DNA of 64,000 nucleotides from Cucumis sativus (Eukaryota > Streptophyta > Magnoliopsida > Cucurbitales > Cucurbitaceae), in contig NC_026660.2 in NCBI RefSeq assembly GCF_000004075.3, positions 434,001-498,000 on the forward strand, written 5' to 3'. This document shows, in pieces, positions 11,910 through 60,963 of the stretch. Made by a program: the position numbers and the translations under genes. How positions within the stretch are numbered: the stretch's first letter is position 1; each line of letters begins with the position of its first letter. The notes beneath the pieces were generated by a model. It was not told where the DNA came from. It saw nothing but the letters and a program-made list of their open reading frames with translations, and searched no databases.

Positions 11910-12789
11910 TATCAAAAAAACAATTGAGTTATAAAAAGGAATTTTAAAAATAAAAGAATTGAGGTTCATGCCAAAATTTTAATGGAGTGGAAAGTGTTTT
12001 TTTTTTTATTTTAAAAATAGTAAATTTTACAAAAATATTTATAACTTATACTAAATTTTGTTATTTATAATTATTGATATGGTATAATGATATAATACTA
12101 TATTTCTTTATAGAATACAAAATTTTGCTACTATTCATACATATTTTAATTTATTTTTTTATTTTTAACAATGTTCCTACATATTATAACAAATTTATAT
12201 ATTTTTTAATATTTAGCAAATTATTGTTTTTTCCAAATTATATGAATTTCCCAAATTTCAAATGATTTGCCATTTAACAAATATATTTTCCAAATTTATT
12301 CAAGTTTATTGAACGTTTTTAAATTTTGAAAAAGGTCAATTTTGTGAATGTTGATGTTAATGTTGACTGAGATTTCACTAAAAAACTCAAACATATCAAA
12401 ATTTGGTGAAAGATTTTTTAAAAAAAAGAAAATTTAATAGAAAATTTGGCAAATGTCTTAAATTAAAATTTATTTTCTTAATTAGAATTTTGTATATTTG
12501 TCTGTCAAATTTAATATCATTTTTATTATTTATTGTATATACTTTTCAAAATTAATTTCAAATTATTTCCTTATTCATGTTAAACACAAATTTATTAGGT
12601 AAACTACTTATTTATGTTACTAATTAATGTATGCTTTTTTTATGGAAATAGTTCATTTTTTAATATGAAAAGAAAATTTTTCTAATATGAAATAATTTAA
12701 TAATTAAATATAAACTTATATAACTATTTTCATCACCTTATTAAAAATCTTAGAAAAATTTTCTGGTGTCGACAAGGAGTTCTGTATCA

Positions 12790-17608: not shown

Positions 17609-18612
17609 TTTGGTCCCTATGTTTACTCGTGGGGATCGTTTTTGTTTTCTCTTCTCCTCTTGTTGAAATGTGAGGGGGGTAGTTGTTGTTTGTTGTGTTT
17701 TTTGGGGTTGATGTTTGTTTTATATTTGTTTCCTAAGATTTAGGATGACCATTGAGAGAGAAAGGAGAGGTAGTAGTTTGGGGAGATGGTTGTTTTTGGT
17801 ACAAATCTAAAAGCTATTCTATCCCCAAAAACACGCAAATTTCCAAGGTTAAATCTCACTTAAGTCTCATTTCCTTTTTATCCTAAAATTTTAAAATATA
17901 CGAACTTATAACTTTACTTTTAACCATAATTGTTCCATAAAATTTAGTTTGAATTTTGAAAACTAAAAACTTTGAGATACTCTAGCGATTAAATGGATGT
18001 GTTGTTTGTAAACATAGCCAAATGAATGATTCAATGATTTTCCTTCCTTTTTCTATAAACCAATTACTTATTTAATATTTTTTATTTTTATAATTAAAGC
18101 AACAAAATAAAACCATTGTTTTATGTAATTCGTCTAGAAGATCTCATTAAAAAAAATTAAATTAAATTTTAGACTTATAGATTATTTGATTCAATGGAAT
18201 TACATTAAAAGAAAATTCAATTTCAAGAAATTTGATCGAGTATTTACTTTTACTGTATTTAATAGATGAGGGAGGCCATGTTGAAGGGTTAAAAACCCAA
18301 ATTTTTAAAAATAAGTCTGTTATTCAAATATATAAACATTTTGAGGACATTTTTCAAAATAATCCTAAAACTTTTGTTCGGTTAATATATATAATTATGA
18401 ATTCAAACAAATTCATAATTAAACCAAATGATTTTGGCGATTAGTTCTCACCGTAAATTAACAAATAACAAAAGCCAATGCTCCAGCCTCCTGAATGTCT
18501 TCCGGTGGTCGTCACCGTCCATTTCGAACTGCCATTATTCTTCCCGCCGGCGTCTTTACGCCACCCCTAACACCGACTGAACTTCTCCTCAACTCTCACA
18601 TCCTTTTCATCA
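17609..18612. promoter_or_regulatory. Divergent intergenic region between MATE and PPR genes
   Basis: About 1 kb separates the two start codons (MATE leftward from 17608, PPR rightward from 18613), so both promoters must lie here. The MATE-proximal side has a pyrimidine-rich leader on the plus strand. The centre (17880-18470) is AT-rich without coding potential. No single TATA element stands out. Confidence 0.5.
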
Positions 18613-39310: not shown

Positions 39311-41175
39311 TCAATAACCGGGAAACAACGGTGGAGGCGGTGATGCATATTCGAAGCCAATATTTGGTGGGAGAATCACATCTTCAAATGACGGTGGTGG
39401 TGAAGAATCGGGAGGAGGAGGAGATGCAATCGGAGGTGGTGGAGATTGAACTGGTGGCGGTGGGGAGTAAACAGGTGGAGGTGGAGGAGAGTAGACAGGT
39501 GGTGGTGGAGAATAGACTGGTGGTGGTGGAGAGTAGACAGGGGGTGGTGGAGAGTGGACGGGGGGTGGTGGAGAGTGAACCGGTGGTGGTGGGGAGTGGA
39601 CAGGAGGTGGTGGAGAGTAGACAGGGGGTGGTGGGGAGTAAATCGGTGGAGGTGGAGAGTGAACTGGTGGTGGTGGTGAGTGAACAGGAGGTGGAGGTGA
39701 GGAGATCGGGGGTGGTGGTGAATGAACAGGGGGTGGAGGAGAGTGGACGGGGGTGGTGGGGAATGAACCGGTGGTGGAGGAGGGGAATAGACTGGTGGTA
39801 GGGGAGATTCAGCTGGAGATGAAGTAGGTGTTTCAGTGATAGATGGCGACGATGGAACAGAGGTCTCACTTGGAGATGGTGGAGTCACAACTGGAGGTGG
39901 TGGAGACCTATATCTTGGCGATGGAGACTGATCGTATGGATCCTCAAAGGTCGACGGCACACCAGGAGAACTCGACCCACCACCACAATTTCCACAGTCC
40001 ACTGATTTCTTCAAGACAGTGCTACATTTGTTTGCATCTTTCTGCATAGGTCGATTTGCCAAACAATTTTGACTATCGTCAAAGAGCTTCTCTGATCCTT
40101 TAGATGTAGCACATGCCGCATCTTCTCCATCAAAGTAATTAAAGGAGAAAGTGAAGTTAGCCAATTTAGGCAACTTGCAAAGATCACCAGAGACAGAGCC
40201 CCTCAGTTCGTTGTTGCTAACGTCCATAATCTCCAAATTTTGGAGGCCAGACAATGATTCTGGCAATTGGCCTATGAAGCCATTGTTGCTAACATCAAAG
40301 ACTGTGAGATTGACGAGGTTTCCGATCTCAGGTGGAAAACAACCACTGAGCTTGTTACCGATGAAGAGAATTTGGTTGAGGTTAGACATTTGGCCAATGG
40401 TGCTAGGAATGCAGCCATGGAATTCGTTGTTGGCGAAGGAGACAACAGAGACGGTGGAGTTTCCAATGGTTTCAGGAATTAAAGAATTGAATCTATTGTT
40501 GTTCAAGAAGATGGCGTCAAACTCGTTGGTGAAAAGTGTGGAGGGGATTTCTCCTTCGAAGTCATTGTACCTGAGATCGAGGTACTTCGCACTCGACCAT
40601 TCGAGGACAACAAGTGGAAAGTGACCAACGAAGCGGTTGTTGCTGACATCAAACTCAAACATAAGTACAAGCTTTGAGAAACTAGAAGGAATGATCCCAC
40701 AAAACCTGTTAGAGTTAATATGGAAGAGAGCCAAATCGGTCAAAAGCCCGAGTTCCGGAGGCAAGTACCCTGCAATGTCACCGTCATTCAAATCAATGCC
40801 AGCCACAACCTCAATTTTTGGGTCATCAAGCGCTGGAGCACAGAAGACACCGTTGTAAGAACAAACATTGGCGCCAACCCAATTGACGGTCATGTTTTTT
40901 GGGTCGGAATAAACAGCTAATTTCCACGCTTGAAGAGCTACATAAGCTTTCTTCAACCTCTCATTTGGAAAAGTGTCAGGAATGTCAAGTTCATATTTGA
41001 AGTCATCGGGGAGTTGATCGTGTTCTTTTAGAGTCAATAGTTGACGTTGAGTAATATATGAAACTTCGGCTTGGGAGACAGAGAGAGTGAGAGATGGGAG
41101 AGAGATAAAGAGGAAAAGAAGAAGAAGAAGAAGAAAGCAGGCATGGTTAGCTTGCTTTCTATGAAGAGAAGCCAT
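39311..41175 (-). CDS. Leucine-rich repeat extensin (LRX), copy A; 1-nt deletion in the extensin region
   Basis: LRX proteins are cell-wall proteins: an N-terminal LRR domain binds RALF peptides, and a hydroxyproline-rich extensin part anchors the protein in the wall. The protein starts at MASLHRKQANHACF (41175) with a hydrophobic signal peptide. An N-terminal cap with Cys-containing NWVGANVCSYNGVFC follows, then about ten LRRs (residues 110-345), a Cys-rich hinge (SVDCGNCGGG) and Ser-Pro4 repeats with VYS/VHS spacers. The tail is PPPSFEDVILPPNIGFEYA, ending PLFPGY, with the stop at 39311-39313. The G run at 39749-39753 has five bases where copy B has six. This 1-nt loss shifts the frame, so the open frame runs on into a His/Leu-rich nonsense stretch to 39376. 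With the base restored the length would be 621 codons. It is a sequencing error or a recent break. Confidence 0.85.
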
Positions 41176-44100
41176 GGTGAAATGGGTTGTCGCTGTGTTG
41201 GACTATGGGATCCCAAAGTTTCCCTTTTTAAACCCAATTTCTTTAACCCTTTTTCTCGTTTGCAAATGATTTTTGTGGATTGAGATTCTATTTCGCCTTT
41301 CTTCCAAATCAAAATCCTATTTTTTTGGATTATGTTTGGTTGTGGTCTTTCCAATATTTTCTTTTTTCTTTCTTTAGGATATAACTTCGTCAATTGGATT
41401 AAAATGACAAACATCGCTGGACTTCATTGAGAGAATTTCTCTTTTTCTTTTGATTCCCACTAATATCATTCTTACTTTACATAACAAAATTTGCTTCATA
41501 AACATTCAGATAATATAAAAATACAACAATGTATAACCCTATATAACTCATATTTTATGTCTAATACATCCTTAATAAATACCAAATTTTACTATCTTTT
41601 CATTCAATAATATTCATCTTCCAAGTAAGTTTACTAAAAAAAACAAACTCCAAATGTTACGTAAACCATTCACTGGGAAGGAAAAAAAATTAAACATATC
41701 AATTACTAGTAATAAACACATGAGACTAAATAGGTTTATAGTATAAATATATAAATTTCTTCATGATTATTTTAAACATGACAAAATTAGAGATGAAAGT
41801 CTTGATATGAAGGGTCAAATTATTTAATTTATCACAAATGTATATTTGATGTTGAAATATATATTTGGGGTGTATAAATTTGAATTCATAATGGTTAGGT
41901 ATAATTGAGTTGCTAATTATTATAAATGAGAAAAAGAAAAATACGAATGAAATTATAAAAGCAATGTCTCGTCCCTATTTGTGGAAGGCAGAAGACTCGT
42001 TGGATGAAAAATGAAATCAACGCCTATAAATAGGACACGTAATGAATAGCGTGAATTCCAAAAACTTTCTTACAAAACCTATCGTTTTCACTTGCCGCCG
42101 TTTCACCCATTTATGTATTTCATTTCCTATCGCCTATCCAACAACCGCCGTCTTTCTTCCACCGGAAAAAAAGCATCCTGAAGGCTGAAACCTACTCTAC
42201 CCGCCGATTCATTACTTTACCTATTGCATTTTATGACCACTTCCTAAATTTTAAATTCGGTTCATCTGCTATTTACTGAAACATCCTGCCATCCCATCTA
42301 ATCCTGTTTTGGTGGAGTAATCTAGCTCGATCGGGTTGAATTAGTGCTCTATTTTCAAGATTTCGAGTTGAGATGGATACATTTACTTGCCCATTTATCC
42401 TCGCAGGTTCTTTCGTTCTTCATTGATCTGATGATGTGTTGTTTAAGTTAATTTGGTATTTTATTTTGTGATTTGATCGAGCGGTGAAGTAACTTTTGAG
42501 GAATTCCTAAAATAAGATAAAGATAAAGTGATGCTTTTGGTTCTGACTGTTTGTCAATGGAAGATTCTCAAATTGTTGTTCTGCTGCCGAGAGCTTTTTC
42601 CATGTCAAAATTCAGTACTCAATTGAGAAAGAAACTCATATTCCTTTTTTTCTTTCTTTCTTTCTTTTAATTTTTGAAAATATTCTCTATCCTTTTCAAG
42701 TTATTACTTCTCAATTTCTCCCAATTTCTTTGAACATCAAGTGCCTCTCAATTTTCTTAACGTCAAGGTTTAGATTTATAGAACTTCTACTCAATTCAAT
42801 GGATGGATTGCAACTCATCTTCTAACACCAAATATTCTGGTTAATTATATATTTTTTAAAACAAAATGAAACGCTTTGTTTCGTTTTTGTTTTGTTTTTA
42901 TCATATCAATTACCTAAACTATGCAACTCAATGGTGGGTAATTTCGAAATTATTTGCAATCTCCAGCTTTTTTTTCTTTTTTCTTTTTGAACTCTTTCCT
43001 CTTCTTCACCACACGGCAATTTTACCGATCAGTTCAACTCCAATTGATTTTTTTTTCCTGTTAGTGTGTATCAAAACTATAAGAGTCAAAGCTGTCAAAA
43101 GGCAAAAATTCATGATCAAGAAAAAGGGCCATATGGAAGTGGAGATTGAGAAAGGAATCCAGAAAAAAACGACCCAAAAAGATTAGAGAGAAACCAAGGA
43201 GAAAAAGAACAAAGAACGTTTAGGAAATGAAAATGTAGGAAAAAAGAAGTGAAATTGAGATTTGGATGAACGAAAAAGTGAAGAAGAAGAAGAAGAAAAT
43301 TAAAGAAAACTGAGAGAGAGGAGATGGACGAATTAGGAAGAAGAAGAAAGAGAACAATTTTTCTTTTTCTAAGGAGAAAACTCCACATAACACCATAGAA
43401 AAGAGCCCACATGGAAGGGGTTGCAGGTGCTGGGTGACACCCTCCAACACCAAGTTTTATGCATTATTTTTTACGGTGGATTGTTAAGATCAGTTCATAA
43501 CTTGTTCGATTCCATAATTTCTCCTAACTCACAACTCTTAGCTGTTTATTAAGTTTAAGATTATTGCTATTTTCTATGCCAAAGTCAGTCTCATTAACAA
43601 GTCGTCCCAAGTTCAACTTTAGATTCTATCTAAGCTCATTTATTAATCTGATTGAAATATATAGCTTGATAATACCATGCCTTTATTATAGGTATTCAAC
43701 CACCAACTCAAACATGCATATGTATGATTTTTTATATAGATAATGTTACGTATAAAATTTGGTAACATCTCTTTCAAGGGACGAACCCTTAATTCTTTCT
43801 AGTTATAAGGTACGAAAAGAATAACAAGCTATATGTTTGTCTTGTCTGCCTATGGTAGCTTTATTATAAAATTTTGGATGTATCGATCTATTCAAGGTAC
43901 AAGTGGTTACAAACAAACATTAAATTGGTATATAATTCTTCAATGTATAATAAATGCATGAAAAAAAAGAGAGAAAGAAAAACTAAGGAAATACTTGCAT
44001 TTACCTTTCTTAAAATAAAATTTCTCATTTTAGAGAATATGAAAAAAAATTTAATTAAATGGAAGTAGTAATTAATATAGTGAACAATCCATCGATTCAT

Positions 44101-45068
44101 GTGACTTCATGTTAGATGTATAATAACAATTATTTCATTATATATATATAATTGACAAATTAATTACTCAAACAATTTCTCTCTTAACACTGATAGAGTT
44201 TTTTTCTGAGAAAACTACAATTTTATAACATTTAAATATTTCTTTTCATGTAACTTAACTTTTAAAAGTCAATGGTAATTAAATTAAAATTATATAGTAT
44301 CTATTTATTATATGGTAAAAAAATTAGTATTTAAAAAATAACAAGATCTACAAAATTTAGTGCTATTTTCTTGACTAATAAATTAAAAAAAAAACTATAA
44401 CTCAACTTGGTTAAAAGTAGGTTAAGAATTAAAAAGTTTATGGATAGAATCTTACTATCTCTTACAACACTAAAATTTTTTAACTAATTTGAGATCTTTA
44501 GTAAACAGTAAAATTTTGTGAAAAAAAAGAAAGTAGATTAAGTTGAAATATGTCATTGAAGAAGGCAACCGTTAAATTTTTCTCCAATGGTTCAAATTTT
44601 TTAACTTGTAAGTTATTCTGATATTTGTTTTGTTTAACCTTTAATAACATACATTATGAATTTTTAGTATAAACCACATGAGATGGGGAGGGTTTTCAAC
44701 TGATTACTTTTAAAACTAAAATAGAAAGACATGTAGCAGTTTGGTAGCATATTTTAAGCAACAATTTTAGTACTCATTAGTTATCATATGGTTATGTTGT
44801 GATAACACACTTAATATATGTATACAACTAAAATATATATAAATATATATCTAGACACTTTAGTTCAAATAGTTAAGTGATAAAAATTTCTCTCTTCATT
44901 TGAGTAAGAAGATCAAAGCTACACTAATAAGAAAAATTTTAAGATGTCAAATGTATATGACAAAGTTGTAATATTTTGAATTTTTATGTAAGAGTAAATA
45001 GGGTTACAAGTATAGTCATGAAACTATTGGCTCTCAATAAAACTTGGGATTATTTGAGATGAGACTCC
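41176..45068. other. Promoter of LRX copy A and intergenic region up to copy B
   Basis: A TATA-like GTTATATCC (minus strand, 41378-41386) lies about 205 bp upstream of the LRX-A start and is conserved at the same place in copies B and D. Homology to the other LRX promoters continues patchily to about 41890. At 42060-42410 a GC-richer patch with Pro/Arg-like codons ends in ATGGATACATTTACTTGCCC..TCGCAG/GTTC, resembling a first exon with no partner. The 43100-43430 region is GA-rich. The stretch 44690-45068 is the 3' flank of copy B. No other gene is supported. Confidence 0.45.
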
Positions 45069-47079
45069 TTAGTAACCGGGAAACAATGGTGGAGGCGGTG
45101 ATGCGTATTGGAAGCCGATATTTGGTGGGAGGATCACATCTTCAAATGATGGTGGTGGTGAAGAATCGGGAGGAGGAGGAGGAGGAGATGACGTTGGAGG
45201 TGGTGGAGATTGGACTGGTGGTGGTGGAGATTGGACTGGTGGTGGTGGAGAGTAGACAGGTGGCGGTGGAGAGTAAACTGGTGGTGGTGGAGATTGAACC
45301 GGTGGAGGTGGAGAGTAGACAGGTGGGGGTGGGGAATGGACTGGGGGTGGTGGAGAGTGGACAGGGGGTGGTGGGGAGTGGACAGGGGGTGGTGGAGAGT
45401 GAACCGGTGGAGGTGGAGAGTAAACAGGTGGAGGTGGAGAGTGAATCGGTGGAGGTGGAGAGAAAATCGGTGGTGGTGGTGAGTGAACAGGAGGGGGAGG
45501 AGACGAGATCGGTGGTGGTGGTGAGTGAACAGGAGGTGGAGGAGAGGAGACCGGTGGTGGTGGTGAGTGAACTGGAGGAGGTGGGGAGTGAACCGGTGGA
45601 GGTGGAGAGTGAACCGGTGGTGGTGGAGAGTGAACTGGTGGTGGAGGAGAGGAAACCGGTGGTGGTGGTGAGTGAACAGGCGGTGGAGGAGAGTGGACGG
45701 GGGGTGGTGGGGATGGAGTCGAGGTTGGTGGTGAAGACTCAATTGGAGACGGTGGTGATGATGGAACAGAGGTCTCGCTTGGAGATGGTGGAGTCACAAC
45801 TGGAGGTGGTGGAGACCTATATCTTGGCAATGGAGACTGATCATATGGATCCTCAAAGGTCGACGGCACACCAGGAGAACTCGACCCACCACCACAACTT
45901 CCACAGTCCACTGATTTCTTCAAGACAGTGCTACATTTGTTTGCATCTTTCTGCATAGGTCGATTTGCCAAACAATTTTGACTATCGTCAAAGAGCTTCT
46001 CTGATCCTTTAGATGTAGCACATGCCGCATCTTCTCCATTAAAGTAATTAAAGGAGAAGGTGAAGTTAGCCAATTTAGGCAACTTACAAAGGCCTCCAGA
46101 GACAGAGCCTCTCAATTCATTGTTGCTAACGTCCATAATCTCTAAATTTTGGAGGCTAGACAAGGATTCCGGCAATTGACCTATGAAGTCATTGTTGCTG
46201 ACATCAAAGAACTGTGAGATTGACTAGGTTTCCGATCTCAGGTGGGAAACAGCCGCTGAGCTTGTTGCCGAGGAAGAGAATTTGGTTGAGGTTAGACATT
46301 TGGCCAATAGTGCTAGGAATGCAACCATGGAATTCGTTGTTCGCGAAGGAGACAACGGAGACGGTGGAGTTTCCGATGGTGTCAGGGATTAGGGAATTGA
46401 ATCTATTGTTGTTTAGGAAGATGGCATCGAAGTCCTTGGTGAAAAGTGTGGAGGGGATTTCTCCTTCGAAGTCATTGTATCTGAGATCGAGGTACTTCGC
46501 ACTCGGCCATTCGAGGACAACGAGAGGAAAATGGCCAACGAAGCGGTTGTTGCTGACATCAAACTCAAACATGAGTACAAGGTTGGAGAAGCTAGAAGGA
46601 ATGATCCCACAGAATCGGTTAGAGTTAATATGGAAGAGAGCCAAATCGGTCAAAAGCCCAAGTTCCGGAGGCAAGTGTCCTGCAATGTCACCATGGTTCA
46701 AATCAATGCCAGCCACAACCTCAATTTTTGGGTCATCGAGCGCCGGAGCACAGAAGACGCCGGTGTAAGAACAAACATCGGCGCCTACCCAATTGGCAGT
46801 CATGTTTTGTGGGTCGGAATAAACAGCTAATTTCCAGGCTTGAAGGGCTCTATAAGCTTTCTTCAACCTCTCGTTTGGGAAAGTGTCAGGAATGTCGAGT
46901 TCGTATTGAAAGTCAAGGGGGAGTTCATCATAGTTTTTGAGAGTCAATAGTTGACGACGAGTAAGATATGAAGCTTCGGCTTCAGAGAGAGAGATAGAGA
47001 AAGATGGGAGAGAGAAGAAGAGAAAAAGAATAATAAGAAAGCAAGCATGGTTAGCTTGCTTTCTATGAAGAGAAGCCAT
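45069..47079 (-). CDS. Leucine-rich repeat extensin (LRX), copy B; 1-nt insertion in the LRR domain
   Basis: Architecture as in copy A: signal peptide, capped LRR domain, Cys hinge, then the longest fully uniform extensin array in the cluster (about 30 SPPPP units with VHS, VYS, VQS, VSS and IHS spacers, 45180-45720), and tail PPPSFEDVILPPNIGFQYA. The start at 47079 (MASLHRK) is chosen because it is conserved in all four copies. An in-frame Met at 47184 adds 35 polar residues from the leader. An extra A at about 46210 (CAAAGAACTG; copies A and C read CAAAGACTG) shifts the frame after LRR 7-8 and gives an early stop at about 46204. The reading resumes at 46175 and is open to the stop at 45069. 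Removing one base gives 669 codons. The LRR half is almost identical to copy D on the other strand. Confidence 0.85.
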
Positions 47080-47480
47080 GGTGAAATGGGTTGCAGCTGT
47101 GTTTGAATTTGGGACCCATTTCCCCCTTTTAAACCCATTCTTCTTTAACCATTTTTGTTTGTTTGTATGGTGATTTGTTTGCAAATTAAATGGTTTTGTG
47201 GATTGGGATTCTTTTTCGCCTTCTTTGTTGGATTGTGTTTGGTTGTGGTCTTTCCATTCTCTTCTCTTTGCTTTCTTTAGTATATAACTTCGTCAATTCA
47301 ATTAAAATTATCACACACACAATACATCATTAATCCACTTTATTTACACAATTTCTTTTTTTTTTTCTTTTTCTTTCCACTCATTTCATTCCTTTATACA
47401 TCATAAATTTTCATTCAATAAACATTTTCCTAATGTATAATATATAAGTTTCGAAACTTTATATTTTATATCTAGTAAAT
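46140..47480 (-). repeat. Left arm of a ~1.35-kb inverted repeat (LRX-B 5' part and promoter)
   Basis: This stretch (5' flank, leader and LRR domain of copy B) is nearly identical to 58480-59820 on the opposite strand, including the non-coding leader and TATA region. Only a few differences were noticed, for example CTTCTTTGTTGG versus CTTCTTTATTGG in the leader. Beyond both ends the similarity falls to the level seen among the other copies. Confidence 0.8.
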
Positions 47481-49299
47481 CCTTAAACTTTAAGTATATG
47501 TTTTATAAAGAAATGAACTCGTATTGCAACATAAACCAATCATCATAAAAAAAATAGTAATTTCTAGTCATATTATAAATATATACATTTGTTTTTAATT
47601 CTCTTAAACCATGGCCAAATCTGGGTTGAAAGTCTTGATACTAGTGGCCAAATTATTTAGTTTAATTTAAGTATTTGATGTTGAAATATATTTGTGGTGT
47701 ATAAATTTGAATTATTTCCTTGACATATTTTTTATTGTTTTGAATTCATAATGGTAATTAGGCAAAGAAATAACTTTACATTCAACATGCAGCCCTTCAA
47801 GTAATGAAAATAAATATAATATGTGATAACAAAGTTTACACATCTCTTGAATTTATTATTTAACATTTTTTCTCAACAATGAAATAATTGAATTAATATT
47901 GTAAAATTTTGTCCATCTCCTAAAAAGAAACTTCACATGGATGATGATAGGCAACAAACATTACAATAAATTATACCCAATGTCGAGTGATCAAGGTTTG
48001 GGATCAAATATTCAATTTTAGAAAAGAAAAAATGCTAATTAAATCTGTTGATGGTTTGAAAGATTCTACTCTATTGAGGCGAATGACTTGTTTTTATTCG
48101 TCCGCTCATATATTAAGCTGCGACTTAAGGACGTTTCAAAGGAGGCTTAAAGAATATTGGAGTTACACTTACTTTAACCGTACATATATTATAAGCTTAT
48201 AAACATAATATATTAACATTTAATGATATGAATAATTTGAGTAAATTCTAAACTTTTAGATAGATAATTAAATAACTTTAACAAAGATTGAACAGAAAAG
48301 AAGGATTGATATGATGAAAACTATAGGACTAAGTTTCTAAGGATACTATTTGTTTTCCTCGTCTCTTTTTTAATTAAATAAACTACATTTCCTAACTATT
48401 TTTCTCTAATTTTTTTATAGTTTAAAATTTAAAAATTTTAAATCACTTAATTTTCTCGTTCTATATATTTTTTCTACGCAGGAGTATTAGCGGCAAAACT
48501 GAGTGTAACCTCACCTTATAGTGTTTTGAAGTTAGCTAATCTTTTTTAAATGTTCTGTTTTCGTTTTGTTCTAGAACTCATAATTTGGCAGCGCAGTTGC
48601 GAACTACATCGTCGTCTTGGTTCAATGTTATATTTTCTTTCCTGGGGGCTTTAATAAGCCCTTTTCTGCTTTGGATGATGAAAGTCATTGGTGCTTCCAG
48701 AGTTGTGATATCGAAGGTTCATAGTCCACTGTTGTTAATGGGAAGCCTTTGTAATGAGTTTTCTCTCGGTTTATATATTATTTCCTCTTAGAAAAACTGG
48801 GATGAATGTTAATTTTTTTAAAAAAAACAATTTAAATGTTAAATCATGTTTTTATATATATATATATATAAGTGAAATTAATGGTATTGTCAGGTTAAAT
48901 GTTTGTATAGCAGACTCAATTTAGGCCATGTGCTTTTAGATTTAATAGTTTATGTTATAGTTTGCAATTTGTAATAGTTTTATTACTTTTAAAATTAAGT
49001 ATTGAACTTTAATATTATAATAAAATTGAATTGGTGTATGTAATTAATAAAGGAATAAGAGGTCCAATATTGAAAAATTGATGTGATTATTCAATTGTGG
49101 AGAATCTCTTAGAAAGGGCGAAAAGGTAATGCATGAGTTATAGGGATCTTCTCTTCTCTTTTTACTATTCTTTCGTTTATGTGATAGACACGTTCTCGAA
49201 AATAACACTTTTTAAGATTCTAATTTTGAGTCTTACTTACTTACTACTTTTGCTCTTTTTTAATTTTACTTCCAAATTCTTCATTTTTTTTTCTCTAAC

Positions 49300-49330
<31 letters not shown>
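47080..49330. other. Promoter of LRX copy B and AT-rich region up to the retrotransposon
   Basis: TATA-like GTTATATAC (minus strand, 47280-47288) lies about 205 bp upstream of the LRX-B start. From about 48980 to 49300 the sequence matches the 3' flank of copy A (38110-38790), so this end belongs to the 3' flank of copy C, cut off from it by the copia insertion. It finishes in an ATT microsatellite (49300-49330). A GC-richer patch at 48575-48790 has a 68-codon frame of unknown nature. No gene is supported. Confidence 0.45.
49300..49330. repeat. (ATT)n microsatellite, left of the copia insertion
   Basis: About ten ATT units immediately abut the left LTR. The same microsatellite continues on the right side of the element at 54245-54300, showing that the element landed inside it. 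Confidence 0.95.
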
Positions 49331-49331
<1 letters not shown>

Positions 49332-49460
49332 GTGGGAATATTCTTTATTCATAAAATATTCTGTTTTCTACAATCATATCAATTGTTACATAAATAGCTA
49401 AATTACCCAAATTAAATAAAGAATGTAATATAATTAGTATAAATTACATAATATACATTA
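49331..49460 (-). repeat. 3' LTR of the copia element (left on plus strand)
   Basis: It begins TGTGGGAATATTC and ends ATACATTA on the plus strand. It differs from the other LTR at five positions (C/T, T/A, A/G and a TA/CC pair). The inner edge is uncertain by a few bases because ATTAAT is shared with the flank. Confidence 0.9.
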
Positions 49461-49463
49461 ATA

Positions 49464-49475
49464 CCCTCCCTCAAA
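49464..49475 (-). promoter_or_regulatory. Polypurine tract of the copia element
   Basis: On the minus strand the sequence TTTGAGGGAGGG lies three bases before the 3' LTR. This is the usual plus-strand primer position in copia elements. Confidence 0.75.
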
Positions 49476-49476
49476 C

Positions 49477-51366
49477 TCAAGGTGGTAGAGTGACGATCAA
49501 CTTGAGTTTGGTAAGTAATTGACAGAACCGATTAGATGGCAAAGCTTTGGTGAAGATATCCGCAGGTTGTTCAATAGTAGAAACAGAACGTAAGAGGAGG
49601 GTGTTGCTTAAGAGGTGGTGACGAACAAAGTGACAGTCATTTTCAATATGTTTTGTACGTTCATGAAACACATCATTGTGAGCAATCTGAATGGCACTAC
49701 GATTGTCACAATGGAGGAGGGTAGGACCATGTTGAGGGACACCCATATCAGCAAGGAGCCACCGAAGCCATATAAGTTCAGCTGTAGCATCAGCCAGAGC
49801 ATGATATTCAGATTCCGTACTTGAGCGAGAGATAACACTTTGTTTCTTACTACGCCATGAGATGAGAGAATCACCTAAGTAAAAACAGTATCCTGTGGTG
49901 GATCGTCGATCAGTAGGATCCCTAGCCCAATCAGCATCAGAATATCCATACAACACAAGGGAAGACTGAGAGGAGAACTGGAGACCATGTCCCAAGGTTC
50001 CTTTGACATAGCGAAGTATGCGTAGAACATCAGTGAAATGAATTGTTCGAGGAGTAGCCATAAATTGGCTGACAATATGAACAACGTATGCAATATCTGA
50101 GCGAGTCACTGTTAGGTATATAAGACTGCCAACAAGTTGCCGATACAAGCTTGCATCATCAAGAGGAACTCCATCAAATGGAGTTAGATGGACATGGGGA
50201 TCTAACGGTGTTGAAGATGTGTTGGAGTATGTAATTCCTGAGCGAGCTATCAGATCAGATGCATATTTCGCTTGAGATAACAGATAACCATCTGAACGGT
50301 GAGAGACTTCAAGACCGAGAAAGTAGTTAAGAGATCCAAGGTCTTTCATCTCAAAATGTTGACCAAGATATTGTTGTAGGTTGGATATGGCATGTGGATC
50401 ATTACCAGTAATAATCATATCATCAACATAAAGAAGGAGAAGGACAATACCATGGTTTGTCTGTCGTGTAAAAAGAGCATTGTCGTGAGAGCTGGAGGTA
50501 AATCCAAGTTGAGTAATGGTGGAGCTAAACGTGGCAAACCAAGCTCGTGAAGCCTGTTTGAGACCGTATAAAGCGCGACGAAGGAGACACACCTTGTTGG
50601 GAGGAGGAGAAGTGCCCTGAGGTGGCTTCATATATACTTCTTCAGAGAAGTTGCCGTTAAGAAAGGCATTTTTGACATCCATCTAAAGAAGAGGCCACTG
50701 TTTGGCAGCAGCAACAGCTAACAGGCTGCGAACAGATGTCATCCGGGCAACAAGGGCAAATGTTTCTTCATAGTCAATCCCATATTATTGTGAGTACCCT
50801 TTGGCAACAAGCCGAGCTTTATAACGTTCAATAGTTCCATCAAAGTGAGTTTTGATTTTGTAAATCCATTTGCAACCAATGGGTCTTTTACCGGGAGGTA
50901 AGTCAACATAGTCCCAAGTGTGCGTCTTTTCAAGAGCTTGTAATTCTTCATCAATTGGTTTCTGCCATACTGGGTTAGTACTGGCCTCTTGATAAGAGGT
51001 GGGTTCAACAAGAGAAACAATGGTGGAAAAACAATGGTAATCAGTGAGATGAGTGAGAGGTTCTCTTAGCCGGGTAGAGCGACGAAGAGGAGTAGCAGGT
51101 GGAGATTCAGGAACATCATCGGAGACAGACGGTGGATCTGGATTCGCAGTAGCAGGTGAAGATTGTGCAATCTCAGTATCCAATGTGGGTTCAGAGAGAG
51201 GAAAAAGGTCAACAGATGTATTGGTAAAGAAGGAGTGAGGACTAGAGAAAGAGGTGTGGAAGGAGGACAAGCGAGAGAACATAGTGTGTTCCCAAAAGGT
51301 GACATGTCGAGATATCCGGAGTCGGTTGGAAAGAGGGTCCCAACGGTGCCATAGCCAAGGAAACAA
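49477..51366 (-). pseudogene. Copia reverse transcriptase and RNase H region (broken)
   Basis: The frame 51366-50785 carries the end of the integrase region and the start of the RVT_2 reverse transcriptase domain (WDYVDLPPGKRPIGCKWIYK), then hits an in-frame TAA at 50785-50787. A second in-frame stop (TAG, 50683-50685) precedes the 401-codon frame 50682-49477. That frame has the polymerase core with catalytic YVDDM, the chromodomain-free copia connection, and RNase H (SDADWA, STESEYHAL, HCDN). The domains are intact apart from the stops, so decay is moderate. Confidence 0.85.
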
Positions 51367-52560
51367 CAGAGACGGGCACGTGGTTCAAGCTTATTGTGTT
51401 CATGAGGATGTAAAAGAACGAAGCAGGCACTACCAAAAACTTTGAGTTTAGAGTAGTCGGGAGAAATACCATATAGTCTTTTGAATGGAGAGGTGTTTTG
51501 AAGAACAGAAGAAGGGAGACGATTGATGGTATATACTGATGTAAGGGCAGCTTCACCCCAGAATTTTTCAGGACAAGAGCAGAAAGAAGGAGGGCACGTA
51601 CTGAGTCAAGAATGTTACGATGTTTTCGCTCAGCACGCCCATTTTGTTGAGAGGTATGAGGGCAAGAGCGCTGAACAATAGTGCCCTGTTGGGAAAGAAA
51701 AGAAAGAAGGATGGAATCTTTGTATTCCAAAGCATTATCAGTGCGAAGAATTTTGATGGGAGAGGAAAATTGAGTGCGGATCATGTTAGCAAACTCAATA
51801 TATGTACGAGACAATTCAGAACGATGTTTTAGAAAGTAAATCCATGTAAAACGAGAGTAGTCATCAATGAATAAGACATAATAGCGATAACCATGAACAG
51901 TAGTAGTTGGGGCAAGACCCCAAATATCAGAATGCACTAGATCAAAAGGTTTATCACAATTAGAAATGGATTGAGAAAAAGATAGGGCAGGTTGTTTAGC
52001 AAGTTTGCAATTCAAACAATTAAAAGGAACAAACTTAGTAAGATTATTCAAATTGTTAACAGAAATTAAATGACAAAGTTTTTCAGAAGAAGCATGACCA
52101 AGACGAAGATGCCACTGATATGTGTTAGAATCAGTGACTGAAGCAGAGATGAAAGAAGGAGATGGAACCCGAAGTGATATGAGCTCAAACAATCTTCCCA
52201 CTTTGCGACCCGTTCCAATCGTCTGTCCCGTCTGCGGATCCTGAACCTGACAACCATTGGGAGAAAAGGAAACATTTAAGCCAAGATCACATAATTGACC
52301 GATAGACACTAGATTAATGGCAGGTTAGGAACACAGTAAGTATGGGAAAGATGTAAACTGGGAGTATCAATGGTACCAGTATGAGAGATGTTCATACAGT
52401 TACCATCAGCAGCATAAATAGGAGGTAAAGATTTTGTAGGGCTAGAACTAGACATAAGAGAAAAGTCAGAGGTCATATGATTAGAACAGGTAGAATCAAG
52501 AAGCCAACGATTACCTGACGAGACAGCAAGAGCAGAGGATGATGAAATTAGTTGATTCAA
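51367..52560 (-). pseudogene. Copia protease and integrase region (broken)
   Basis: The protease frame (52560-52309) has the catalytic Asp in LLDSTCSNHMT. It is cut by a 1-nt shift at about 52309-52318. The next frame holds the zinc-binding GAG-pre-integrase part (HLRLGH, then CLNCKLAKQ) and the integrase core, with the three acidic residues in SDIWG, RTDNALEY and NGRAERKHR. A second 1-nt deletion near 51578 shifts the frame downstream of the core. A short deletion near 51343 changes it back toward the reverse-transcriptase frame. Confidence 0.8.
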
Positions 52561-52566
52561 TAAGCT

Positions 52567-53592
52567 CTAAAGATCACTTATCTGAATGAGGGATGAATCA
52601 TCCGAGGTTGCAGCAACAACAGATGAGGGACCAGGTTTGGTAAAGTTTTTCTCTTTTCTGGAAGTGCCAGGAGGTCGGGGTGGTCTAGTAGGGCAGTTAT
52701 CCAGAATGTGACCATGCTTATGGCAGTACCTGCACTCTGTTTTAGGACAGTTAATAAATTTGTGACCAGAGAGCTTACAATTCTTACAAAACATATTTGA
52801 GGCTCTGTTGGGAGTGTATGTGCTGGCAAGGACAGCATCAGATTGTTTAGTAGAATTGATGCCAAGGCGCTTTTCTTCAAACAAAATTTCTTGAATAGCT
52901 GCATCCAATGAGGGTAAGGGATTCCGATGTAGTAAAGCAGCTCTAACAGATTCGTATTCTTGGCGTAATCTCATAAGGACTTTAATAAGGCGAAGATGAT
53001 CTTTGCTGATGCTCGCTTGATCAAGCTGAGTCCAAATGGGTTGAAGAACTGCCAAATATTCATTGACAAACTGACCAATGTCTTGATGCAAATTTACAAG
53101 AGTATTGTGCAGTTGATAATAATGGGCTAAACCAATAGATTTGAAGCGTGTAGACAAAAAATCTCATAATTGTTTAGCATCATCAAAAGCATCAAATTGT
53201 GCATGTATAGCGGGAATAGAAGTGTTACCAAGCCAGGTGATAATTTGATGATTTTTACTGTTCCAATCTTCGAGGCGTTCAATGAATTTGTTATCTCCTT
53301 CCTTGTCCTTGTCTTGTGCAGTTGGTTTGATTATGTCGCCAGTTACAATGCGCCATAGTTTTCTTCCAATGAGAAAACTTTTCATTTGATTTGCCCATGT
53401 GATATAATTTGTTCCATCAAGTATTGTACTGATGGGTCTAATGATATGATCTCTCTCCATTCTAAAAAAAATTAGAAGCTCACTTGTACTAGCAACTGAG
53501 TGCGCAAGAACCTTAACCACAAGTTTTGTATAAATTGGATTTGCGGCTGAGGTTAACAACGAAGATTTTCGACTAATTTTCAACTGATTCAT
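52567..53592 (-). pseudogene. Copia gag region (broken by stops)
   Basis: The first frame (53592-53164) carries the N-terminal gag part (LDGTNYITWANQMKSFLIG). An in-frame TGA (53164-53166) stands where related gag proteins have Trp. Gag continues in 53157-52567 with the UBN2-type region and two zinc-knuckle-like motifs, one a perfect CCHC box (CRYCHKHGHILDNC). It ends at TAG (52567-52569), beyond which the same frame continues into protease. Confidence 0.85.
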
Positions 53593-54101
53593 GGCTGGGA
53601 TTCGTCAAATTTGGAGTTTGCGATTGGAGTTTGCGACTGGGTGGTTATCTCCACGTCTGAGTCGCGGCTGAGATGCGACGGCGAGGACACGACTCGATTC
53701 GAGGGTTTCGCGGCCAGGATTTATCTTCACAGCTGGGTTGTCTGACGCGGACAGAGGTTCACAGCTGTGAACAGAGACGAAAATGAAGACAGACGACTGA
53801 TCTGAGTAAGGATCTTTACAGTAGAGATCTGGGCGGCGGTGATGATGAGGCTTGGGTGCTTCGCGAATGGAGACAAATCGGAGCAGGAACGTACCCAAAC
53901 GCGACTGGTTCTTGGGCCGAGGTTGGTTCGAATGGTGCGACGCCGAGGCTGCAACTTCACGGAACGGCGAGCGACTGGTGCGACGCTAAGGCTGCAGCTT
54001 CACGGGACGGCGAGCGGCTTGTGCAGAGATCCACCTCACGGTAGAGATGAACCGACAAAGATGGGCGGCGACGGCGGCTTATACAGTAACCCTAGGTTAG
54101 A

Positions 54102-54114
54102 GGCTCTGATACCA
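54102..54114 (-). promoter_or_regulatory. Primer-binding site of the copia element
   Basis: On the minus strand TGGTATCAGAGCC directly follows the 5' LTR. It is complementary to the 3' end of initiator tRNA-Met, the standard primer for plant copia elements. Confidence 0.92.
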
Positions 54115-54244
54115 TGTGGGAATATTCTTTATTCATAAAATATTTTGTTTTCTACAATCAAATCAATTGTTACATAAATAGCTAAATTACCCAAATTAAA
54201 TAAGGAATGTAATATAATTAGCCTAAATTACATAATATACATTA
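54115..54244 (-). repeat. 5' LTR of the copia element (right on plus strand)
   Basis: 130 bp, 96% identical to the left LTR. It should carry the element promoter, transcribing leftward. Confidence 0.9.
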
Positions 54245-54315
<71 letters not shown>

Positions 54316-54796
54316 TTTCAAGTATTTCTAATTAATTAAGTCCCCTCACTCTTTCTCTATTTTTTAAGTTCATCTTCTTGATCACATATTTTAAACAACA
54401 ATTTTAGTAATTAGTTAGGTTGTCATGACACACTCAAATATATATACATATATATATATACATATATATATATACATATATATATATACATATATATACA
54501 TATATATATATACATATACATCTATATATATAAACAACTAAATGAAATATAAAAATATATATACTTTAATTCAAATAGTTAATTAAAGTGGATAAAAATT
54601 TGTCTCTTCATTTCAGTAAGAAGATCGAAGCTACACTAAGAGGATAAGAGGAAAAATTAAAGATGTTAAATGTATGTGACAAAGTAATAATATTTTGAAT
54701 TTTCATGAAAGAGTAAATAGGATTACAATTGAACAAGATGTAGTCATAAAACTAATGGCTCTCAATAAAACTTCAAATTATTTGAGATGGAACTCC
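54245..54796. repeat. ATT and AT-rich compound microsatellites and 3' flank of LRX copy C
   Basis: (ATT)n spans 54245-54300 and grades into (AT)n to 54317. A compound array of TATATATA blocks separated by CA (units near 10-16 bp) spans about 54437-54532. From 54590 to 54796 the DNA matches the 3' flanks of copies A and B (AAGAAGATCGAAGCTACACT, then AGAGTAAATAGGATTACAA). Confidence 0.8.
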
Positions 54797-56687
54797 TCAG
54801 TAACCGGGAAACAAAGGTGGAGGCGGTGATGCATATTGGAAGCCGATATTTGGTGGGAGGATTACGTCTTCAAATGAGGGTGGTGGTGAAGAATCATGAG
54901 AGGGAGGCGGAGGAGGAGATGCAGTTGGAGGTGGTGGAGATTGAACTGGTGGTGGCGGTGGAGAGTACACAGGTGGTGGTGGAGAACGGACTGGTGGGGG
55001 TGGAGAGTACACAGGTGGTGGTGGAGAATGGACTGGTGGGGGTGGAGAGTACACAGGTGGTGGTGGAGAATGGACTGGTGGAGGTGGAGAGTACACCGGT
55101 GGAGGTGGAGAATGGACCGGTGGGGGTGGAGAGTAAACGGGTGGTGGTGGAGAATGGATCGGTGGAGGTGGAGAATAAACGGGAGGCGGTGGAGAATGGA
55201 CCGGTGGAGGTGGAGAATGGACTGGTGGGGGTGGAGAGTGGACGGGGGGTGGTGGAGAGTGAACCGGTGGTGGTGGTGAGTGAACAGGGGTGTGGAGGAG
55301 AGTTGACAGGGGGTGGTGGGGATGGAGTCGAGATTGGTGGTGAAGACTCAATTGGAGACGGTGGTGATGATGGAACAGAGGTCTCGCTTGGAGATGGTGG
55401 AGTCACAACCGGAGGTGGTGGAGACCTATATCTTGGCGATGGAGACTGATCATATGGATCCTCAAAGGTCGACGGCACACCAGGAGAACTCGACCCACCA
55501 CCACAATTTCCACAGTCCACTGATTTCTTCAAGACAGTGCTACATTTGTTTGCATCTTTCTGCATAGGTCGATTTGCCAAACAATTTTGACTATCGTCAA
55601 AGAGCTTCTCTGATCCTTTAGATGTAGCACATGTCGCATCTTCTCCATTAAAGTAATTAAAGGAGAAGGTGAAGTTAGCCAATTTAGGCAACTTACAAAG
55701 GCCTCCAGAGACAGAGCCTCTCAATTCATTGTTGCTAACGTCCATAATCTCTAAATTTTGGAGGCTAGACAAGGATTCCGGCAATTGACCTATGAAGTCA
55801 TTGTTGCTGACGTCAAAGACTGTGAGATTGACTAGGTTTCCGATCTCAGGTGGGAAACAGCCGCTGAGCTTGTTGCCGAGGAAGAGAATTTGGTTGAGGT
55901 TAGACATTTGGCCAATGGTGCTTGGAATGCAGCCATGGAATTCGTTGTTGGCAAAAGAGACAACGGAGACGGTAGAGTTTCCAATGGTTTCAGGGATTAG
56001 AGAATTGAATCTATTGTTATTTAGGAAGATGGCGTCGAACTCCTTGGTGAAGAGTGTGGAGGGGATTTCTCCTTCAAAGTCATTGTACCTGAGATCGAGG
56101 TACTTCGCACTCGGCCATTCGAGGACAACGAGAGGAAAATGGCCAACAAATCGGTTGTTGCTGACATCAAACTCAAACATGAGTACAAGGTTGGAGAAGC
56201 TAGAAGGAATGATCCCACAGAACCGGTTAGAGTTAATATGGAAGAGAGCCAAATCGGTCAAAAGCCCAAGTTCCGGAGGCAAGTGCCCTGCAATGTCACC
56301 ATGGTTCAAATCAATGCCAGCCACAACCTCAATTTTTGGGTCATCGAGCGCCGGAGCACAGAAGACGCCGGTGTAAGAACAAACATCGGCGCCTACCCAA
56401 TTGGCAGTCATGTTTTGTGGGTCGGAATAAACAGCTAATTTCCACGCTTGAAGGGCTACATAAGCTTTCTTCAACCTCTCGTTTGGGAAAGTGTCAGCAA
56501 TGTCAAGTTCGTATTGAAAGTCATCGGGGAGTTCATAATGGTTTTTGAGAGTCAATAGTTGACGACGAGTAAGATATGAAGCTTCGGCTTCTGAGAGAGA
56601 GACAGAGAAAGAGGGGAGAGAGAAGAAGAGAAAAAGAATAATAAGAAAGCAAGCATGGTGAGCTTGCTTTCTGTGAAGTGAAGCCAT
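54797..56687 (-). CDS. Leucine-rich repeat extensin (LRX), copy C; 1-nt insertion in the extensin region
   Basis: It starts at MASLHRKQAHHACF (56687; two-copy-conserved leader precedes it). It has a signal peptide, capped LRR domain of about ten repeats, Cys hinge SVDCGNCGGG and an extensin array (54900-55320) dominated by alternating VHS and VYS spacers, with tail PPPSFEDVILPPNIGFQYA and stop at 54797. The 21-base repeat unit at about 55282-55303 (ACAGGGGTGTGGAGGA on plus) has 22 bases, so the frame shifts. The LRR frame then runs on as a Thr/Ser-rich stretch to 54894, while the true extensin reading continues in the next frame. Removing one base gives 629 codons. The regular VYS spacers would offer tyrosines for wall cross-linking. 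Confidence 0.85.
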
Positions 56688-58859
56688 GGTGAAATGGGTC
56701 GTCGCTGTGTTGAACATAAGACCCCATTTTAGCCTTTTTAAACCCCATTCTCTTGGTCCCTTCCATTAGTTACATGGTTGCAAGTAATTTTGTGGATTGA
56801 GATTCTTTTTCGCTTTCTGTCATGTCTATTTCCTATTTTTTTTGGTTTGTGTTTGGTTGTCATCTTTCCATCATTTTTGCTTTCTTTAGGATATAGTTTG
56901 TGGGTTAGATTGATTAAAATTAGGAGACAAAGTATAGGCTCTTAATTAATTTAATTATGTTTTTGTCTAAGAGGGATGCTTAAATTATTATACATCTTTG
57001 TACTTAAAACATATCCAATTTATTATCTAAACTTTTCATATAATTTGTAAGTTGTTCTTGGTATGCCAATCTAATCAAGGTACTCTTTCTAATTTTTCTA
57101 AGTTGACTTGCAACACAAGAATGCATATTTAAGTATACTATAATGTCTAAATTAATCATGAAATGTTTAGTTTAGGTAAGGATACACAATATTACTTAAT
57201 TATCGCATGGAGTGATGGAATAAAACTATTCTACAAAGTACATTGTATGATAAAATTAGACTAATTTAATTTCTTTAGCGCTTTGCAGCTAGATGTTTCA
57301 AGATTAGTACGTAGCGTTCTAATTTAAAGATTTGTATATATATTTAACAAAATGATTTGCACTTTTACTAATTTGTTATTTAAGTTTAGAAACATTTTAG
57401 TTTTTGATTTGTAAAATTTCACATTTTAATCCTTAAGGTTTGAGTATAATGTCAACGAGATGGAGTAAGGATAGGATGACTTTCTTTGTCGTCTCAATCA
57501 CACCACCTTCCATTTTTATTATTCCCCATTTCCACCAATTTTATTGTTTAGTATATTTAAAAGGATTACTTAAATACTTTCTTGAAGAAAGTTTTGAATT
57601 GAATAGTTAGTTTTTTTTTTTTGTCATGAATCCTACTCTACAGTTAATTCTTCCTATTAAGATCTTAAGCCTTTTTAATTAAATTACATATAAAGTTATT
57701 TAATTATCACTTTAGTAATAACTCAAACATATCGAGTTATTCGTAACGATATTCTTTAAAAAAAAAGTTTACTACCATTCAAATATATGCATATCCTATG
57801 AATGTGTGCGGGTGTTTCATATATATATTGACAATAAATGGGACGAGATCGGGATGGAGAAAGCATTTTTGACATTAAAAGAAATTAACAACCTAATTAT
57901 AGGGTGGCTTCAAAGAAACATAGCAAAAAAATTTATAATAACAGGACTTATGTCATTACATTTTCTTAAATTGCAAAAGTAGCAAATTTAAAAGCATATA
58001 ACTCTCTAATAATCCTCCGATAGGCGTTTGATAACCATATGATATCATTAATTACTTTTCGTATTTGCAATAAGCAAAAAGTGCCATGAATTGTTTTTTT
58101 CTAAATGTTTTTGTCTTAATTATACCTCACGGTTATGAATTCAAAAAATAATTCTCCAATGAAATAATTCAAATCTATACACCCAATTTAAATTCCAACA
58201 TCAAATATTTGAGATAACTTGACCAATGGTATTAAGACTTTTAATTCTGGTTTTGCTATGTTTAAAATAATCATAAAGAAATATATATGATTATACTATA
58301 AACTTATGCATATCTCTCGTATTTTTTTGTTACAACACTATTGACTCCACGACCACTTGATTTATGTTAAAATGATAAAAAAAATTGAATTCTATGGATT
58401 CATTTGGTTTATGTTAGATTTAGAGTTCATTTTCATTTAGCAAAGTTAGTAGAAAGTTCAATAGCTTATATATTATATTATTTGATACAAAATATAAAGT
58501 TTATACATTATGTGAATGTTTAATGAATGAAAAATTGTGATGTAAAAAGGAATGAAATGAGTGGAAAGAAAAAGAAAAAGAGAGAAAATGTGTAAATAAA
58601 GTGGATTAATGATGTATTGTGTGTGTGATAATTTTAATTGAATTGACGAAGTTATATACTAAAGAAAGCAAAGAGAAGAGAATGGAAAGACCACAACCAA
58701 ACACAATCCAATAAAGAAGGCGAAAAAGAATCCCAATCCACAAAACCATTTAATTTGCAAACAAATCACCATACAAACAAACAAAAATGGTTAAAGAAGA
58801 ATGGGTTTAAAAGGGGGAAATGGGTCCCAAATTCAAACACAGCTGCAACCCATTTCACC
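56688..58859. promoter_or_regulatory. Divergent promoter region between LRX copies C and D
   Basis: Copies C (-) and D (+) point away from each other, with 2.2 kb between the start codons. The D-proximal 380 bp is the outer end of the inverted repeat shared with copy B. Around 58140-58260 and 57780-58080 are weak matches to the far-upstream regions of copies A and B. The middle is AT-rich with no coding potential. Confidence 0.5.
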
Positions 58860-59820
58860 ATGGCTTCTCTTCATAGAAAGCAAGCTAACCATGCTTGCTT
58901 TCTTATTATTCTTTTTCTCTTCTTCTCTCTCCCATCTTTCTCTATCTCTCTCTCTGAAGCCGAAGCTTCATATCTTACTCGTCGTCAACTATTGACTCTC
59001 AAAAACTATGATGAACTCCCCCTTGACTTTCAATACGAACTCGACATTCCTGACACTTTCCCAAACGAGAGGTTGAAGAAAGCTTATAGAGCCCTTCAAG
59101 CCTGGAAATTAGCTGTTTATTCCGACCCACAAAACATGACTGCCAATTGGGTAGGCGCCGATGTTTGTTCTTACACCGGCGTCTTCTGTGCTCCGGCGCT
59201 CGATGACCCAAAAATTGAGGTTGTGGCTGGCATTGATTTGAACCATGGTGACATTGCAGGACACTTGCCTCCGGAACTTGGGCTTTTGACCGATTTGGCT
59301 CTCTTCCATATTAACTCTAACCGATTCTGTGGGATCATTCCTTCTAGCTTCTCCAACCTTGTACTCATGTTTGAGTTTGATGTCAGCAACAACCGCTTCG
59401 TTGGCCATTTTCCTCTCGTTGTCCTCGAATGGCCGAGTGCGAAGTACCTCGATCTCAGATACAATGACTTCGAAGGAGAAATCCCCTCCACACTTTTCAC
59501 CAAGGACTTCGATGCCATCTTCCTAAACAACAATAGATTCAATTCCCTAATCCCTGACACCATCGGAAACTCCACCGTCTCCGTTGTCTCCTTCGCCAAC
59601 AACGAATTCCATGGTTGCATTCCTAGCACTATTGGCCAAATGTCTAACCTCAACCAAATTCTCTTCCTCGGCAACAAGCTCAGCGGCTGTTTCCCACCTG
59701 AGATCGGAAACCTAGTCAATCTCACAGTCTTTGACGTCAGCAACAATGACTTCATAGGTCAATTGCCGGAATCCTTGTCTAGCCTCCAAAATTTAGAGAT
59801 TATGGACGTTAGCAACAATG
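58480..59820 (+). repeat. Right arm of the ~1.35-kb inverted repeat (LRX-D 5' part and promoter)
   Basis: Reverse complement of 46140-47480, nearly base for base through promoter, leader and LRR domain. At the inner end copy D reads GACGTCA like copy C, whereas copy B reads GACATCA, so the B-like tract ends at about 59735 or soon after. Confidence 0.8.
58652..58658 (+). promoter_or_regulatory. Conserved TATA-like element of LRX copy D
   Basis: GAAGTTATATACTAAAG lies about 205 bp before the start codon. The same block with the flanking AATTGACGAAG is present in the promoters of copies A and B (minus strand) and altered in copy C. Conserved position across paralogues supports its use. Confidence 0.5.
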
Positions 59821-60963
59821 AATTGAAGAGGCTCTGTCTCTGGAGGCCTTTGTAAGTTGCCTAAATTGGCTAACTTCACCTTCTCCTTTAATTACTTTAA
59901 TGGAGAAGATGCGGCATGTGCTACATCTAAAGGATCAGAGAAGCTCTTTGACGATAGTCAAAATTGTTTGGCAAATCGACCTATGCAGAAAGATGCAAAC
60001 AAATGTAGCACTGTCTTGAAGAAATCAGTGGACTGTGGAAATTGTGGTGGTGGGTCGAGTTCTCCTGGTGTGCCGTCGACCTTTGAGGATCCATATGATC
60101 AGTCTCCATCGCCAAGATATAGGTCTCCACCACCACCAGTGACCTCTCCACCAAAATCGGTTGACACCCCTGTCTCAGAAGTGGATACTCCACCATCTCC
60201 CATTGAGACCTCTATTCCTTCGTCACCACCATCTCCAATTGAGTCTTCACCACCAACCTCAGTTCCATCCTCACCACCACCCCTAGTTCATTCCCCACCA
60301 CCGCCGGTCTCCTCTCCTCCACCCCCAGTTCATTCTCCGCCACCACCGGTTTCCTCTCCGCCACCACCAGTCTCCTCTCCTCCACCACCACCACCGGTCT
60401 CCTCTCCTCCACCACCAGTTCACTCCCCACCACCACCTGTCTCCTCTCCTCCACCACCAGTTCACTCCCCGCCACCACCTGTCTTCTCTCCTCCACCACC
60501 AGTTCACTCCCCGCCACCACCTGTCTTCTCTCCTCCACCACCAGTTCACTCTCCGCCACCACCGGTCTCCTCTCCTCCACCACCAGTTCACTCCCCGCCA
60601 CCACCGGTCTTCTCTCCTCCACCCCCAGTTCACTCCCCTCCACCACCGGTCTCTTCTCCTCCACCACCAGTTCAATCCCCGCCACCACCAGTCTCTTCTC
60701 CTCCACCACCACCAGTCTTCTCTCCTCCACCACCAGTTCTCTCTCCACCTCCACCAGTCTCCTCTCCTCCACCACCAGTTCTCTCCCCACCTCCTCCCGT
60801 CCTCTCTCCACCACCACCTGTTAACTCACCACCCCCACCAGTCCAGTCTCCACCACCACCTGTCAATTCTTCTCCGCCGCCATCATTCGAGGATGTAATC
60901 CTTCCACCAAATATCGGTTTCGAATACGCATCACCGCCTCCACCACTGTTTCCCGGCTACTGA
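58860..60963 (+). CDS. Leucine-rich repeat extensin (LRX), copy D; 1-nt insertion after the last LRR
   Basis: The only copy on the plus strand. MASLHRK start, signal peptide, capped LRR domain identical to copy B over most of its length, then an extra A at about 59826 (AATTGAAGAGG; the other copies read AATTGAGAGG). This ends the first frame at 59855. The second frame, 59857-60963, holds the hinge (SVDCGNCGGG), a linker not seen in the other copies (SPPKSVDTPVSEVDTPPSP) and the longest extensin array of the cluster, mainly VSS, VHS, VFS and VLS spacers and almost no Tyr, then the tail PPPSFEDVILPPNIGFEYA. Removing one base gives 700 codons. Its LRR half groups with B, but its extensin half is distinct, suggesting a mosaic. 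Confidence 0.85.

Follow-up and report, generated by a model that had tools for sequence, protein, structure and literature searches.

Four leucine-rich repeat extensin (LRX) genes, designated here A to D, are clustered within 22 kb of the window, by which we mean the whole stretch of cucumber DNA analyzed (64,000 nucleotides, positions 434001 to 498000 of the 31.1-Mb contig C6). D alone lies on the opposite strand. From the start ATG to the terminal stop, the genes are as follows:

41175-39311, minus strand: LRX copy A, 1865 nt, one base short of a multiple of three.
47079-45069, minus strand: LRX copy B, 2011 nt, one base over a multiple of three.
56687-54797, minus strand: LRX copy C, 1891 nt, one base over a multiple of three.
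58860-60963, plus strand: LRX copy D, 2104 nt, one base over a multiple of three.

The copies share a common architecture, i.e., a signal peptide (called by eye from the hydrophobic start), an LRR domain, a hinge, a Ser-Pro extensin repeat, and a conserved C-terminal tail. Pfam LRR_1 was found in every copy, LRRNT_2 in every copy but A, and LRR_8 in C; in B, LRR_1 and LRRNT_2 lie in the upstream part. The Ser-Pro(3-5) extensin repeat and the tail are present and open in 4/4 copies; as assembled, the tail is in a different frame from the start of the LRR part.

A previous sequence-only reading had proposed that each copy is broken exactly once, and this was borne out: the length of each is not a multiple of three, there is one frame switch per copy, and both the start and the tail are intact. 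The codon counts then given (621, 669, 629, and 700 for A, B, C, and D, respectively) agree with the measured lengths. In all four copies there are no stops before the switch and only the terminal stop after it, and the open stretch on both sides amounts to some 160 codons or more, which is beyond chance. Neither nonsense changes nor multiple lesions were found in the two frames composing each gene. The breaks map to the following sites:

39749-39753, minus strand: break in A, a short G run within the extensin repeat, read from the sequence.
46207-46211, minus strand: break in B, one base more than in C and D, inside the LRR domain, placed by alignment.
55282-55303, minus strand: break in C, a 22-base unit in a 21-base repeat (the long unit near 55286-55291), at the start of the extensin repeat.
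59826-59827, plus strand: break in D, an extra base at 59826 relative to B and C, late in the LRR domain, placed by alignment.

The breaks in B, C, and D (three of the four) each consist of an extra base. Homopolymer error was considered as the sole cause and rejected, as only the break in A changes a run of five or more. Searches for papers on LRX pseudogenes, cucumber LRX genes, and the 9930 assemblies brought up no printed account of these breaks.

The genome was searched for relatives (226,625,048 bases in 88 contigs), and the matches listed yielded a set of 13 LRX or LRX-like loci, namely A to D, L005 to L008, and L031 to L035, with two weaker matches on contig C7 near 5.22 Mb left out. 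Comparison with solved structures, which covered A and D, returned the pollen LRX structure 6qwn as the best match for both copies, with 454.6 bits for A (LRX2, 344.7 bits) and 460.1 bits for D (LRX2, 351 bits), the top matches being 6qwn, 6tme, and 6qxp. The LRR-part DNA of B is 100% (rounded) identical to that of D and 97% identical to that of C. The four best other LRX loci match the vegetative LRX2 best, one of them (L008) by a narrow margin only. Judged from these similarities, A to D look like pollen-type LRX (PEX) genes and, from the matches listed, they also look like the entire pollen LRX set among the loci found. By analogy, their secreted LRR domain would bind RALF peptides while the extensin repeat would anchor the protein in the pollen tube wall. 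They resemble known pollen LRX/PEX proteins (Arabidopsis LRX8 to LRX11; PDB 6qwn and 6tme; watermelon ClaPEX1) in the LRR domain, hinge, extensin repeat, and tail, and the length of D (2104 nt) is close to that of the ClaPEX1 cDNA, reported as 2,076 bp (PMC8442748). A PEX protein of cucumber, XP_011656352.1, is cited in the same paper. Unlike those genes, each assembled cucumber copy has its frame broken once, and the four copies lie within 22 kb with one on the other strand.

With all four copies broken, no pollen LRX would be left among the loci found, despite the part that their relatives play in the fertility of Arabidopsis and watermelon. Arabidopsis lrx mutant combinations are described in a review as losing fertility, more so with more genes lost (PMC7733995), and silencing of watermelon PEX1 is reported to reduce seed set (PMC8442748). 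An inbred, selfed line without any pollen LRX would be surprising. A and C, as broken, retain the whole LRR domain; that line 9930 has lost every full-length pollen LRX and is nevertheless fertile, with at most secreted forms lacking the extensin anchor, is something we regard as very improbable.

The history of the cluster was examined through its coding changes. Relaxed selection and several lesions would be the criteria for pseudogenes; what we found was a dN/dS of 0.12 to 0.19 for the six pairs of A to D over about 425 codons (the B-D pair resting on five changes), no nonsense change, and one lesion per gene. Changes private to B, C, or D comprise 15 synonymous versus 6 nonsynonymous, where 78% nonsynonymous would be expected without selection (P of about 2e-6, in a test that takes no account of transition bias). 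Most of these fall in C (13 synonymous to 4 nonsynonymous), and those in B (1 to 2) and D (1 to 0) are too few to speak singly. Taken across whole branches, the substitution pattern shows a lasting coding constraint on the cluster, with which a very recent loss would be compatible.

All four genes could be real, very young pseudogenes, their loss resulting from selection having been relaxed across the cluster or from null alleles carried along in a linked sweep. The assembled chromosome does contain the breaks, and the genome matches listed include no further assembled copy of the LRX cluster that would contradict them. What speaks against such a recent collective loss is the absence of nonsense changes together with exactly one one-base indel in 4/4 copies, the coding constraint through the history of the cluster, the lack of any other pollen-type LRX as a substitute among the loci listed, and the report of a full-length cDNA for watermelon PEX1 with a seed-set phenotype when silenced (PMC8442748). 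We consider this scenario highly unlikely.

The alternative is that the breaks were introduced by the assembly, which is almost certainly version 3.0 of cucumber line 9930. The published account of that assembly gives 226.2 Mb in 85 super-scaffolds with an N50 of 31.1 Mb, seven of them being chromosomes, built from PacBio reads with Canu and FALCON and then corrected twice with Pilon at minmq 10 (PMC6582320). According to the same source, Pilon corrected 156,931 indels versus 49,157 substitutions, 30,546 homozygous small indels remained thereafter, and 9930 is a highly inbred line, whose PacBio reads are public under SRP139269 (PMC6582320).

Two loci that appear to have been assembled twice illustrate the errors that remain in such an assembly. 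The first 100 kb of unplaced contig C18 (1-100000; loci L009 to L018) looks like a low-quality second copy of C3:26902501-27002500 (L019 to L028). The largest aligned block between them, 74.5 kb of the 100 kb on each side, contains 226 indels as opposed to 37 mismatches; 187 of the indels are one base long, and 147 of these 187 lie in runs of four or fewer. Bases are missing in C18 at 200/226 indels and in C3 at the other 26. A further block of 18.2 kb has 8 mismatches and 50 gap openings, with a repetitive stretch between the two blocks left uncounted. As the indels greatly exceed the substitutions and the line is inbred, these differences were read as uncorrected long-read error.

The second case concerns an extensin gene, L039 (C6:4582200-4584000), which seems to be duplicated on unplaced contig C44 (49000-51000, L041). 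Over 1.78 kb, the two show 0 mismatches and 13 gaps, all 13 being bases missing from C44. The extensin gene at 4.58 Mb of C6 has one frame break, and C44 has one base fewer exactly there. Since the second copy lacks the break, a one-base frame-breaking error on the chromosome within an extensin repeat is likely from this comparison, although it is possible that an error in C44 fell on the break by chance (about 13 gaps in 1780 places).

The error rates obtained from these sources were applied to the cluster. From the published residual rate alone, 1.06 indels would be expected over the four genes, with a probability of 0.023 for four or more and of 0.003 for at least one in every gene, and therefore a local excess must be assumed. 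With the rates from the C18/C3 comparison, the probability that every one of the four has a break ranges from 0.06, if only the bases missing in C3 are counted, to 0.81, if half of all indels are. The direction of the indels counts against error and in favor of young pseudogenes: extra bases account for three of the four breaks, whereas most of the unpolished errors in C18 are missing bases, and with an extra-base share of 26/226 three or more extra bases out of four would be expected with P = 0.006. The profile of C18 may, nonetheless, be unrepresentative of a polished chromosome. The local excess could be supplied by two causes, unplaceable reads at B and D and the extensin repeat at A and C.

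The placement of short reads was assessed with the 100 bases on each side of each break, compared without gaps with the best other place within the window. On one side, B shows 0 mismatches to D over the flanking bases, and on the other it shows 1 mismatch to C; the flanks of D are identical to C on one side and to B on the other (0 mismatches each). Short reads would be hardly placeable at these two breaks because the sister copies match the flanks with 0 to 1 mismatches, and the minmq filter presumably left the errors in B and D untouched. The flanks of A and C, in contrast, are distinct, with 10 and 36 mismatches per 100 bases for A and 11 and 3 for C; here the breaks lie in the extensin repeat, which has a GC content of 0.57 to 0.58 in both genes versus 0.44 to 0.45 in the LRR part. 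The previous proposal that polishing was defeated by near-identical copies thus holds for B and D and not for A and C.

Other LRX genes of the same genome provided a comparison for the extensin repeat. A dispersed, vegetative-type LRX on contig C2 (L006 and L030, C2:946776-951600) has three frame switches, all inside its extensin repeat, with the LRR part and the tail clean of frame breaks; the best match to it elsewhere in the genome is at 75%. Near-identity as the sole cause was therefore rejected, given the distinct flanks of A and C and this gene without near copies that is broken three times. Among loci with a long extensin repeat (A to D, L005, and L006), 5/6 are broken, whereas no break was found in any of the six loci without one (L007, L008, and L031 to L034; ends not compared with those of relatives). 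The contrast is informative for A, C, and L006 only, since the breaks of B and D are in the LRR domain. The partial LRR gene L035 and the extensin-like locus L038 were left out of the tallies, introns or decay not being separable from error in them.

Six extensin loci were also considered. Two of these (L036 and L037) are open, L039 has its single break, L041 on C44 has many, and L040 was unscored for want of a repeat frame passing the filter. The sixth, L038 (C7:13719400-13721500), has an in-frame stop and, after it, a change of frame, which may reflect either true decay or error. The sequence-only reading had further held that breakage falls in the only multi-copy genes here and that the single-copy multi-exon genes are flawless. 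The first does not hold across the genome, where single-locus relatives are broken too (the LRX on C2 and the extensin gene L039 on C6). For the second, a partial check showed that a 630-codon PPR frame at 18571-20463 in the window is open.

Collectively, we consider it very probable that all four breaks in the cluster are residual assembly errors. A to D would then be intact in the plant, the breaks being single-base PacBio errors that survived short-read correction. At B and D, errors would persist where the sister copies prevent short-read placement; at A and C, they would sit in a GC-richer, internally repetitive extensin segment, as in the dispersed LRX on C2. We infer both that the breaks are errors and the cause at each site. 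The preference for error over pseudogenization is well supported by indirect evidence, i.e., the loci assembled twice, the selection on the coding frame, the assembly history, and the fact that, otherwise, every pollen LRX gene found would have been lost. The earlier view of long-read errors rather than gene death stands to that extent, its stated cause fitting only B and D. The situation is similar to the residual indel errors that fragment genes in long-read assemblies (as in the Kastor paper, PMC12007338), in that small frame-breaking indels occur in sequence that is hard to polish. As a difference, near-identical paralogues account for half of the breaks here, and the other half fall in a proline-codon repeat.

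A mixed origin, in which most of the breaks are errors and one or more (that in C, or that in the G run of A) is a real frameshift allele, is also conceivable. Polishing should have been more effective at A and C, whose flanks are sufficiently distinct for short reads, and the C site, inspected by eye, also has a substitution relative to its sister copy and is not a simple homopolymer change. On the other hand, the extensin repeat is also broken in the C2 LRX, which has no near copies, and the extensin gene L039 is broken where its second assembled copy on C44 differs. We judge a mixed origin to be unlikely, if less so than the loss of the whole cluster. Finally, the breaks might be real and tolerated through frameshift decoding or splicing around the site, as could be suggested by a downstream frame that is open and conserved in 4/4 copies. 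The four sites, however, are at different places with no common slippery sequence by eye, and at the B and D sites no break is present in the aligned sister copies, which makes tolerance of this kind the least credible of the readings and exceedingly improbable.

In the likely event that the breaks are errors, the finding is mainly an assembly warning. Models of the pollen LRX genes in a crop reference may then be split or incorrect, and surveys of the family relying on them could count LRX pseudogenes that do not exist. Further extensin genes of this assembly, and its segments duplicated on unplaced contigs, call for similar caution. If the breaks were real, a fertile plant without an anchored pollen LRX would contradict the Arabidopsis picture and tube wall integrity would have no need for anchored LRX here.

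Further features of the cluster were noted, two of them with defined ends:

45799-47440 (B arm) and 58501-60140 (D arm): inverted near-identical tract, 1.64 kb, 98.78% identity, 16 mismatches and 4 gap bases.
49331-54246, between B and C: Copia-like element with 132-base terminal repeats, 96.2% identical (5 mismatches, no gap).

The inverted tract extends from upstream of the genes to the hinge, and a 93% match between B and C (45342-47103) runs on into the extensin repeat. From these alignments, B looks like a mosaic, which could have arisen by gene conversion or by a switch during assembly. A differs from the other three copies by 0 synonymous changes in codons 351 to 400 and by 1 to 2 in codons 401 to 428, compared with 5 to 11 per 50 codons before, and codons 351 to 428 of the LRR/hinge part may represent a patch homogenized among the four copies near the hinge. 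The Copia-like element retains only open pieces of reverse transcriptase and integrase. Elsewhere in the window, a tandem duplication of 86 to 87 bases with 98.9% identity is found at 11739-11910.
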